From Verrucomicrobiota bacterium (GTDB taxonomy: Bacteria > Verrucomicrobiota > Verrucomicrobiia > Limisphaerales > UBA1096), in NCBI GenBank assembly GCA_014382705.1, contig JACNJE010000102.1:1-43297 (forward strand): a stretch of 43,297 nucleotides of DNA, in the 5' to 3' direction. The notes beneath the pieces are model-generated. The model saw only the letters and a program-made list of their open reading frames with translations, was not told the DNA's origin and did not search any database. Positions within the stretch are counted from its first letter, which is position 1, and every line of letters begins with the position of its first letter. Below, one piece after another: positions 22,464 to 24,941 of this stretch. Both the position numbers and the translations under genes were made by a program.

Positions 22464-24941
22464 ATGATGATAAAGCCGGTCGGCAATCGGTTTCGCACTG
22501 TGATTCTTACACGTTGGCTAGCCGGTTTGTTGTTTGTGATGTTTTGCCACGAGGCATCGGCGATGCAAATTTTTGTTAAAACGTCGACCGGCAAAACCAT
22601 CACGCTTGAAGTCGAGTCGGGCGATTCCATTGATAATATAAAACGTAAGATTCAGGACAAGGAGGGGATTCCTCCGGATCAACAGCAATTGGTTTTTGCC
22701 GGCAAACAACTTGAGGACGGCCGAACCTTGAGCGATTACAATATTCAGAAAGAGGCAACGCTTCATCTACTCTTGAGCTTGACCTACGGCGTCGTTGCGG
22801 GGACGCCAACATCGGCGGGACTACCCTCCTCCGGCGGCAAGTACGGCGTGGTGATGTCGCTTGGCCAAGCCGGGCCCGTTGGCACGGCTTCGTCCGCACG
22901 CTATCAATTATTGGCCGGATACGTGCCGGTTTCCCAGTTGCCGCCGGATTCCTCGCCTCCCACTTCGCCGGAGATCTCCGGTGCCAGCGAGGATCAGGCA
23001 TTTCAGGTGACCGCACCCGGTTTGGCCATTCTCTTGGGGGTAAGCGACCCGGACGGCTTGGGATACCAGTTTCACGTCACGGCTGTCGCTGGGGAACTCC
23101 GGCAGGCCGGCGCCACCGTGACCGCCGCAACGCTTGGCCAAGCGGACAGCGTGGACTGGGTGCCCCCGGTAAACCAAAGCGGGAGCATCAACGCGTTGTC
23201 GGTTGTGCTGAAACGGGGAGAGTACCCGGACGCCGATTCGGTTTCCGTGAATATCGCAGTTGTCGCCGTGAACGACCCACCCGTGGCTGTGGGCGATACC
23301 GCATCAGGCAATGAGGATCAATTGATCAGCGGCGATGTGCTGGCCAACGATGCCGATCCGGAGGGGGCGGCCCTGACGGCGGCCATCCAGGCGCAGCCGC
23401 AGAACGGCACGGTGACGTTGAACGCAGACGGCAGCTTTCAATACACGCCGGATGCCGACTGGCACGGCACGGACACGTTCACGTATGAGGCGAGCGACGG
23501 TACCGGGGGCAAGGGCAGCGGCACGGTGACCGTCACCGTCGCCGCCGTGAATGACCCGCCGGTGGCCGGAGCGAAGACGGCCACGACGGCTGCGGGGAGC
23601 AGCGTAAGCATCGCATTCGCAGGCTCCGATCCGGAGGGCGATTCAGTGACCTACAGCATCGTCACGCCGCCCGCCAACGGAACCTTGTCCGGGTCGGGCG
23701 CAACCCGGCAGTACGCCCCGGCGGCCGGATTTTCCGGCTCGGATTCCTTCACCTACAAGGCGAGCGACGGCCAGGCGGATTCCAATGCGGCAACCGTGAG
23801 CATCACCGTCAGCGCCGCAGAGACGCCCCAGACGGTGACGCAGGCCATCTCGCTGGTGCAGGGCTGGAACCTAGTCTCGCTGTACACCCAGCCGGACGAC
23901 ATGACGCCGTCGAGCATTTTCAGCGGCCATTTTGACGTGATCGAGGAAATGCGCACATTGCAGGGTGTGTTCAACACCTCCTGGCCGGATTTCCTGAACA
24001 CGATCCAGCAGCTCGACCTGGCGGGCAGTTACTGGATCAAGGCCACCGCCGCGCGAGCCGGCATCACGGTCACCGGCGCGCCGGCCACCAGCACGGACAT
24101 CAGCCTGGCCAAGGGCTGGAACCTGATCGGTTTTCCCAGTGCCGGGGCGCAGGAAACGGCGATTCTGTTTCAGTCATTGTCGGGTCAAAACAAGGTTGAG
24201 CGGATCATCGGCACCGGCGAATTCTACACGTTCGACTCCAACGCGCTGTTCAACACCTTGGGCAACCTCCAGCCGGGTGACGGTTACTGGGTGAAAATGC
24301 ATGAAGCCGGCGTGCTGACTGTCCAGAATGTCTCGGCCGGCAACGGGGCGAACGGGGGACGCAGCCTCGCCAAGGCGGATGGCGGGACAAAACTTGCCGA
24401 ATTGAAACAGCATCTCGTGACTTATCCGTCCGTGCCGGCGATTTGCGTCATCGAACTCCGGGCCAACGGCAGGCTTGCCCCGGCCGGCAGCCTGCTGGCG
24501 GCCTACGCCGGCGATGAATTGCGCGGCTTGCAGGAGGTGTGGATACAGGAAGGGCGAATGATCGCCCCGGTCGTGGTGCATGCCACCCAGCCGACTGCGA
24601 TGCGGTTCAGGTTGTGGCATTCCGGCTTGGCCAAGTGGCTTGAGATTCCCGGGCGGTTTCAGGTGGATTCCGGCGACATGCTGGGGTTGAGCAGCGGGGA
24701 GCCGTTCGTGCTGAACGTGGACACAGGCGCTTGGCCAAGCGCACCGGAACTGCAGTTGTGGCGGAACCCGTTGCGGCTGGCCGTGCGCCACGAGTCGGCC
24801 AAGCGCATCGTCGTGGAGCAATCCGGCAACCTGCTCCGCTGGGAGACACGCTGGGAGTTGAGCGGCACCGGCCGGTGGCAGGAGGTTCCTCTCAGCGCGG
24901 AAGACGCCCGGAACTATTTCCGCGTCCGTCTCCCGGAGTGA
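22464..24941 (+). CDS. Exported ubiquitin-headed multidomain protein
   Basis: 825 residues from ATG 22464, which follows the upstream stop; GTG 22455, 10 nt after GGGAG, is an alternative start adding three residues. A signal peptide (RWLAGLLFVMFCHEASA) is followed immediately by a ubiquitin domain at residues 34-109. Then come a short segment ending LLAGYVP, two VCBS/cadherin-like domains (about 272-455; PPVAVGDTASGNEDQ..., PPVAGAKTATTAAGS...), two GWN segments (GWNLVSLY, GWNLIGF, PGDGYWVKM; about 462-620) and a C-terminal domain with LRLWHSGLAKW-like strands. No transmembrane anchor or sorting tail was recognised. Known: such beta domains are typical of secreted or surface proteins. Inferred: the protein displays ubiquitin outside the cytoplasm. 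The lost tail makes conjugation implausible. Four palindrome copies lie in the gene, in different frames. Confidence 0.85.
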   Translation: MMIKPVGNRFRTVILTRWLAGLLFVMFCHEASAMQIFVKTSTGKTITLEVESGDSIDNIKRKIQDKEGIPPDQQQLVFAGKQLEDGRTLSDYNIQKEATLHLLLSLTYGVVAGTPTSAGLPSSGGKYGVVMSLGQAGPVGTASSARYQLLAGYVPVSQLPPDSSPPTSPEISGASEDQAFQVTAPGLAILLGVSDPDGLGYQFHVTAVAGELRQAGATVTAATLGQADSVDWVPPVNQSGSINALSVVLKRGEYPDADSVSVNIAVVAVNDPPVAVGDTASGNEDQLISGDVLANDADPEGAALTAAIQAQPQNGTVTLNADGSFQYTPDADWHGTDTFTYEASDGTGGKGSGTVTVTVAAVNDPPVAGAKTATTAAGSSVSIAFAGSDPEGDSVTYSIVTPPANGTLSGSGATRQYAPAAGFSGSDSFTYKASDGQADSNAATVSITVSAAETPQTVTQAISLVQGWNLVSLYTQPDDMTPSSIFSGHFDVIEEMRTLQGVFNTSWPDFLNTIQQLDLAGSYWIKATAARAGITVTGAPATSTDISLAKGWNLIGFPSAGAQETAILFQSLSGQNKVERIIGTGEFYTFDSNALFNTLGNLQPGDGYWVKMHEAGVLTVQNVSAGNGANGGRSLAKADGGTKLAELKQHLVTYPSVPAICVIELRANGRLAPAGSLLAAYAGDELRGLQEVWIQEGRMIAPVVVHATQPTAMRFRLWHSGLAKWLEIPGRFQVDSGDMLGLSSGEPFVLNVDTGAWPSAPELQLWRNPLRLAVRHESAKRIVVEQSGNLLRWETRWELSGTGRWQEVPLSAEDARNYFRVRLPE
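22563..22790 (+). other. Ubiquitin domain, 62/76 identical to human ubiquitin
   Basis: Starts MQIFVKTSTGKTITLEVE and contains IQDKEGIPPDQQ, FAGKQLEDGRTLSDYN and IQKEATLHL. Aligned without gaps by eye to human ubiquitin there are 14 changes: L8S, P19S, S20G, T22S, E24D, V26I, A28R, R42Q, I44V, S65A, V70L, R72S, R74T, G75Y. S19 and D24 are the yeast/plant states. K6, K11, K27, K29, K33, K48, K63 and H68 are kept. The Ile44 patch is altered (S8, V44, L70), and the RLRGG tail is replaced by SLTYG running into the next domain. Hand-counted G+C is 104 of 228 (46%), well below the surrounding genes. Confidence 0.95.

Follow-up and report, generated by a model that had tools for sequence, protein, structure and literature searches.

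A near-eukaryotic ubiquitin lacking the terminal diglycine at the predicted mature N-terminus of a verrucomicrobial protein, with relatives in several bacterial phyla

Ubiquitin is a hallmark of eukaryotes. The analysis described here concerns a ubiquitin domain encoded in bacterial DNA, on contig JACNJE010000102.1 of the Verrucomicrobiota assembly GCA_014382705.1, whose 43,297 nucleotides are referred to below as the window. The domain (22563-22790) is identical to human ubiquitin in 62 of 76 positions without gaps and forms part of an 828-aa protein whose gene (Table 1) reads in a single open frame across both joints of the ubiquitin segment (22563 and 22790). The original reading as a genuine, near-eukaryotic ubiquitin that shares one frame with a leader and with bacterial Ig/cadherin domains was borne out, the interval 22455-24941 being open throughout. 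The domain matches PF00240 and the ubiquitin beta-grasp fold, and at E <=0.001 ubiquitin and Rad60-SLD are the only Pfam families found over its residues. It is not of the ThiS/MoaD type, having neither a GG tail nor a match to such a family.

The leader of the window protein has a hydrophobic core and an AxA motif at -3/-1 directly before Met1 of ubiquitin, and cleavage by this sequence rule is predicted to leave Met1 at the mature N-terminus, as had been proposed. The database entry for the cluster of the window protein (P0126) starts at this Met1, i.e. at 22563. The GTG at 22455 is preferred as the probable start because the leader is common to the ubiquitin-less ortholog in the same-genus genome G006, which retains the GTG but not the ATGs. 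At its other end the ubiquitin closes with LSLTYG, followed by 716 further residues, in place of the Gly75-Gly76 of conjugable ubiquitin; the tail was thus rightly expected to be unfit as a donor. Families E1, E2, E3 and JAB gave no match among the 20 window genes scanned at the thresholds used, and the E2 family PF00179 was found in 0 of 20 ubiquitin-bearing genomes, the window's own included, in a scan without a positive control. Pfam and NCBIfam scans recognised no surface anchor or sorting signal in the window protein. A structure model of the whole mature protein was poor (pTM 0.30) and was left unused.

Table 1. Features of the ubiquitin fusion gene and of the genes upstream of it in the window
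Feature	Position	Strand	Remarks
2755-aa exported-looking protein, no Pfam or NCBIfam match	10019..18286	+	Upstream, same conserved order
Peptidase_S74 protein between giant gene and TSP3 gene	18757..20682	+	G014 and G031 show no homolog at this position
Exported-looking TSP3-repeat protein	21011..21838	+	Conserved gene order
MORN_2 repeat protein with lipobox-like LSGC	21848..22462	+	Upstream neighbour, order conserved
Ubiquitin fusion gene, 828 aa	22455..24941	+	GTG start overlaps 3' end of upstream gene; GTG kept in G006 ortholog
Predicted Sec signal peptide, 36 aa, C-terminal residues HEASA	22455..22562	+	73/108 nt identical to leader of ubiquitin-less G006 ortholog
Ubiquitin cassette, 76 aa, tail SLTYG	22563..22790	+	62/76 identical to human ubiquitin
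Post-ubiquitin module (SAG..GKYGVxMSLGQ.GPVGT...AGYVP)	22791..23240	+	Common to ubiquitin-less orthologs
Two Big_9 / cadherin-like repeats	23241..23837	+	Pfam; NCBIfam gives tandem-95 and VCBS repeats
C-terminal region (GWNLVSL...YFRVRLPE)	23838..24941	+	Pfam: no match; 61-74% identity to proteins without ubiquitin annotation

The G006 gene that follows the MORN gene has no ubiquitin, and its reading passes directly from ...CHEAVA into AQQGIITPTSAGG. It shares the post-ubiquitin module with the window protein, and its C-terminus is 70% identical over 369 aa. Since this ortholog has a matching leader (Table 1) and C-terminus without the domain between them, ubiquitin in this operon behaves, at the level of the sequences compared, as a cassette set in after the signal peptide and before the mature domain. 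The exported-looking following gene in G032 likewise lacks ubiquitin, as does, in G020, the one beside the TSP3 gene. A protein search with the ubiquitin region, as originally suggested, gave 7106 matches, the 120 listed being mostly polyubiquitins and the named ones eukaryotic; the C-terminal region was searched with instead, scoring only the 7995 candidates that shared most words. It returned 47 proteins, three of them with PF00240: P0126 (the window's own), P0160 and P0161. Ten of the 47 were read, and in four ubiquitin-less ones (P0127, P0128, P0155 and P0157) leader and module adjoin; P0158 and P0162 are apparently cut at the N-terminus and hence uninformative. In a tree of the C-terminal region (17 rows) P0126 and P0160, which has a ubiquitin junction similar to that of the window, are weakly supported sisters (80/70), and P0161 stands apart among ubiquitin-less rows. 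The three ubiquitin-bearing rows need at least two changes on this tree, though they may have a single origin. Ubiquitin residues 1-72 are identical in P0161 and in a Halieaceae genome (L034).

Bacterial and archaeal genome contigs were scanned for relatives in all six frames. The best 80 of 472, the window and 16 loci from Pfam searches of the window's relatives and phylum made up 97 loci. In 82 of the 97 (65 of the best 80) a leader resembling a signal peptide runs up to ubiquitin residue 1, with small residues at -3/-1 in 80 of the 82 and Met as the first ubiquitin residue in 79. The 15 loci without this layout probably include eukaryotic contaminants. Gly75-Gly76 is present in only six of the 82 leader-bearing loci, one of which, a Dyella, terminates exactly at Gly76. 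The extension after ubiquitin has a median length of 241 aa, and a stop follows within 5 residues in two of the 82. By its predicted signal peptide, ubiquitin at the mature N-terminus and further domain the window protein belongs to this ubiquitin-tipped exported group. Strain-titled records among the 82 come from Conexibacter, Dyella (two), Loktanella, Paradonghicola, Cohnella, Carboxylicivirga and Paracidovorax; strain-titled loci that have the layout and no metagenome-assembled genome (MAG) tag are L049, L066, L071, L077, L085, L088, L100 and L112. Site counts were made on 77 of the 82 loci (76-residue reading, at least 45 identities). L045 has a leader-like stretch that failed the start-codon rule and was scored as a miss, although it enters the conservation pairs below. 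Left out of the 97 were L010 (same locus as L046), the divergent copies L013, L014 and L016, L020 (sequence equal to L111; RLRGG, no leader), second copies in L018/L023 and their duplicates L030/L032, and all loci from the scans of the three other phyla below and of viral contigs.

The domain is scattered. With the centre genome counted each time, PF00240 was found in the window's phylum in 14 of 387 genomes, among the window's relatives in 6 of 98, and further in 6 of 345 of the phylum of Carboxylicivirga, 2 of 398 of that of Rhodoferax (the second being weak and without leader) and 5 of 348 of that of Cohnella (three weak). From the genus names we take these last three phyla to be Bacteroidota, Pseudomonadota and Bacillota, respectively. 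Two adjacent stand-alone signal peptide-ubiquitin genes, similar to the exported ubiquitin BfUbb of Bacteroides fragilis, lie on a contig of more than 5.1 Mb in G808 from the phylum of Carboxylicivirga (L168). A leaderless copy on an Opitutaceae-labelled contig (L020/L111) keeps RLRGG intact with 7 residues behind it and may be a contaminant or a cytosolic ubiquitin. In five loci labelled Actinomycetota, Acidimicrobiales or Bifidobacterium (L037, L062, L063, L078, L089) ubiquitin is joined to a TGVVTYQ domain without a leader; three of these leaderless loci were scanned and gave one weak PHROG tail-protein match.

Autotransporter, type IX secretion system (T9SS), PEP/IPTL-CTERM, surface-layer homology (SLH) and dockerin modules serve to anchor proteins at the cell exterior or to sort them there. 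Thirty relatives, hand-picked for spread, were scanned with Pfam for modules behind ubiquitin; 22 have a surface or sorting module there and eight have none. The modules comprise 12 autotransporter beta-domains, four T9SS tails (one of them, in L035, below the Pfam cut-off), two IPTL-CTERM, one PEP-CTERM, two SLH and one dockerin. In 11 of the 12 autotransporter members ubiquitin and barrel are about 50 to 125 residues apart, and in L102 Ig repeats lie between them. Because of these anchor domains the relatives' ubiquitin would be displayed at the surface; the window protein, in contrast, has no recognised anchor.

Ubiquitin and attached domain were compared in homologous pairs sharing both, pairs with attached domains at least 97% identical being excluded. 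Amino-acid identity was higher in ubiquitin in all 67 pairs. The same held in 20 of 20 disjoint pairs, with a median of 0.91 for ubiquitin and 0.60 for the attached domain (Wilcoxon p 2e-6), and in 18 of the 20 ubiquitin identity was about 0.85 or higher. Fourfold-site identity in these 20 pairs was 0.40 and 0.42, respectively (p 0.70), which is consistent with ubiquitin and attached domain being of equal age. Ubiquitin is 97% and the attached domain 41% identical in the pair L042/L053, with 8/24 and 16/57 fourfold sites matching; corresponding ubiquitin values are 93% and 3/23 in L055/L102 and 94% and 12/27 in L045/L053. Ubiquitin was also the more conserved part in six of six pairs, some with members in common, drawn from the Pfam searches, which are less biased. 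As far as these comparisons go, ubiquitin is under stronger purifying selection than the attached domain in homologous pairs across the family; being more conserved at equal silent-site divergence, the ubiquitin body is therefore likely kept by bacteria for a purpose. Between the window and the syntenic locus in G014 ubiquitin is identical in 60/72 and the post-ubiquitin part in 69/116 positions (Fisher p 6e-4), with 7/19 and 18/46 fourfold sites, respectively. This equal silent divergence is no proof of equal age because the composition of the window cassette is foreign and a replacement would look alike.

The G+C content at third codon positions (GC3) of ubiquitin tracks that of the remaining gene (rho 0.84, n=75), and in most of these members it has therefore adopted host codon composition. 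In the window the cassette has a GC3 of 0.51 against 0.80, and the suggestion that low local G+C fits acquisition of the cassette held. The tree that was to place the ubiquitin named no donor: with 92 ubiquitins and 72 columns, too few for the purpose, bacterial sequences are intermixed with those of eukaryotes and viruses (9 label changes) and only one of 87 inner branches is well supported. The clade on that branch (SH-aLRT 96, no bootstrap) unites 11 bacterial sequences, Clostridia-type records (several from gut or rumen) together with members of the window's phylum (L064, L081, L083, L096, L019, L022, L031, L056, L072, L086 and L093), and transfer between phyla is possible. A viral origin was also considered; viral contigs yielded 24 relatives, with no link to the window, and inspection of 17 of them showed leaderless copies with an RLRGG end as well as copies placed behind a leader as in bacteria.

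The exported bacterial ubiquitin studied at the bench that was found in the literature is BfUbb, from one gut species. Its signal peptide is reported to be cleaved before ubiquitin Met1, the terminal glycine is absent and the protein antagonises other strains within the species (PMC5705921); it carries a C-terminal cysteine and inhibited ubiquitination in vitro (PMC3352274). The window protein has, by prediction, the same leader layout and likewise lacks the terminal glycine. BfUbb, however, is a stand-alone secreted protein with tested activities, whereas in the window, known from sequence, ubiquitin heads a multidomain protein in a conserved gene order, and its SLTYG tail has no cysteine. 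BfUbb had been named as the nearest precedent; the predicted layout is indeed the same, but BfUbb is not the sole kin, the window being one of a scattered multi-phylum set. The cyst nematode Globodera rostochiensis secretes a ubiquitin effector, described in PMC5705921, that also consists of signal peptide, ubiquitin and C-terminal extension, export being predicted for the window protein as well; the effector is an animal protein whose 12-aa extension is cleaved in the plant, whereas the window extension has 716 aa and no cleavable diglycine. From eukaryotic ubiquitin and its fusions the window protein differs by the predicted signal peptide, by the lack of Gly-Gly for activation or processing and by a genome in which no E2 was found (no positive control). 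Among the matches listed in a search of the open literature (subscription journals and preprints lay outside its scope) there was no description of a multi-phylum exported-ubiquitin set.

The reading favoured here, with somewhat less than even confidence, is that of an exported non-conjugable ubiquitin tip, displayed outside the cell as a predicted ligand for ubiquitin-recognising proteins of eukaryotic neighbours, e.g. grazing protists. The predicted Sec leader would be removed before Met1, ubiquitin would become the N-terminal tip of the mature protein, and this tip would be displayed outside the cell, as the anchor domains of the relatives suggest. The ubiquitin body would present its binding faces without activation or conjugation, since residues 75-76 are not Gly-Gly. 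Being bound by a partner or having its lysines modified would be all that is open to it, in the role of a ligand or decoy. The binding partner would be eukaryotic and the bacterium would presumably benefit. This draws on the in-frame fusion, the Met1 junction, the missing diglycine, the ubiquitin-less ortholog, the multi-phylum layout and the stronger purifying selection, all read from sequence. Contact with other cells is the likely role of this tip. A eukaryotic reader best explains its constancy because eukaryotes keep ubiquitin constant, and a set of eukaryotic partners would be expected to impose just such a near-eukaryotic sequence while silent sites diverge. The wider proposal, that both free-living and host-associated bacteria from many phyla keep such a ubiquitin as an exposed tip on exported and surface-anchored proteins, moved as a cassette and near-fixed as the eukaryotic cells that meet or eat them must read it, is put forward more tentatively.

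Several observations weigh against a tip read by eukaryotes. Most known ubiquitin receptors are cytosolic, and BfUbb, the exported bacterial ubiquitin with tested activity, acts on bacteria of its own species. Translation from 22563, as in P0126, would leave the window protein without a leader. The best 80 of 472 relatives were chosen by similarity, which favours conserved members, and P0160 matches the window no better in ubiquitin (47/72) than in the C-terminus (227/359). The survival of all seven lysines, correctly noted for the window, is no rule of the lineage: P0160, its sister by the C-terminal region, has four of the seven replaced and three kept, and K48 is retained in 7 of 16 members of the set from the window's phylum and relatives. 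Site variability in bacterial and in eukaryotic-type units correlates weakly (rho 0.37, 72 sites), and for surface sites alone rho is 0.19 (p 0.18), so a copy of eukaryotic constraint finds no support in site-by-site variability. Finally, the GC3 difference in the window is the most negative of 75 genes (-0.28; sd 0.09), and the argument from host-like codons fails for the window itself.

The main rival, and the one with the best precedent, is antibacterial action, in which the exported ubiquitin would antagonise neighbour bacteria through an envelope protein of sensitive strains, as BfUbb does, here tethered to a larger protein; it is thought possible but rather unlikely. Besides the BfUbb precedent (PMC5705921), in which sensitivity hinges on Tyr119 of a peptidyl-prolyl isomerase (as cited in PMC12396204), it can draw on the side-by-side stand-alone genes of L168 in a Bacteroidota genome and on an oyster ubiquitin without the two glycines, described as bacteriostatic in PMC10892293. 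The long extensions behind ubiquitin, with so few members ending soon after it, and the SLH domains of two members and the dockerin of another fit antibacterial action poorly. Conflict proteins usually diversify, whereas this ubiquitin is near-fixed while silent sites diverge. Near-fixation also tells against ubiquitin being merely a stable, protease-resistant N-terminal cap that protects or lengthens exported proteins without a specific partner: the fold alone tolerates far more change, as the divergent copies demonstrate, and yet 18 of the 20 disjoint pairs are as similar as given above. A cap would also have little to protect in the 11 autotransporter members with a short stretch before the barrel. 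The unrelated modules behind ubiquitin, its variable presence in close orthologs and the divergent ubiquitin-like domains in long proteins of this order (L013-L016) do suit a cap, which is nevertheless judged a shade less probable than the antibacterial rival.

Recent neutral acquisition, i.e. a eukaryotic ubiquitin taken up behind the signal peptide, ahead of the mature domain, and drifting without function, would account for the foreign composition of the window cassette and for its patchy presence (6/98 relatives and 3/47 C-terminal homologs, the window's own counted in both). It is improbable given the occurrence of the layout in several phyla and a purifying selection stronger than that on the attached domain; the similar junction and weakly supported sister placement (80/70) with P0160 suggest besides that the cassette is not brand new. 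An artefact can hardly be credited. The window does belong to a draft assembly, and some other matches, such as L048, L050, L058, L075 and L107, are leaderless with a terminal RLRGG and may stem from eukaryotic contamination. Yet the 90%-identity cluster of the window protein comprises 2 sequences on 5 contigs, the longest of which (60,673 bases) exceeds the 43,297-base window contig, one frame spans both joints, ubiquitin is syntenic in G014 and the layout recurs in strain-titled records without a MAG tag. A chimeric assembly, raised at the outset as what could overturn the finding, and a eukaryotic contaminant are thus very unlikely sources of the window ubiquitin.

A near-constant ubiquitin in several phyla, over changing silent sites and changing attached domains, suggests sustained bacterial use of ubiquitin outside the cell. 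It would turn an isolated curiosity into a testable question, namely whether ubiquitin outside cells is recognised in nature by protists or by other bacteria. The set also supplies naturally occurring ubiquitins that lack the diglycine, have a free N-terminus and bear natural changes at the surface.

The ubiquitin gene is the fourth in the order giant-TSP3-MORN-ubiquitin gene, which recurs in the same-genus genome G014. The same order is found in G031, from another family of the order, where a far more divergent ubiquitin-like domain occupies the ubiquitin slot. Relatives of the giant protein were found in 32 of 98 genomes and those of the MORN protein, whose LSGC motif is presumably lipobox-like, in 37 of 98, many of them weak. 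Twenty downstream regions were fetched; a TSP3 homolog was present in 16 and a MORN homolog in 16, and a clear homolog of the fourth gene was found only in G006, with a partial one in G032. Eight following genes were read, the rest of which are unlike the fourth gene of the window; that of G020 also has a leader and Ig-type start, without ubiquitin. In G014 the giant gene is broken by stops and frame changes and the ubiquitin frame (L010) ends after 274 codons, through decay or sequencing errors.

Two long proteins with divergent domains, L013 (7742-11710, minus strand) and L016 (1045-5112, minus strand), carry one or two ubiquitin-like domains near the C-terminus and not at the N-terminus; the start of L013 is signal peptide-like and L016 is masked near its start. 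A Peptidase_S74 (endosialidase chaperone) domain is found at the C-terminus of four proteins of the window contig, encoded at 898-2901, 3137-5023, 5242-7392 and 18757-20682.

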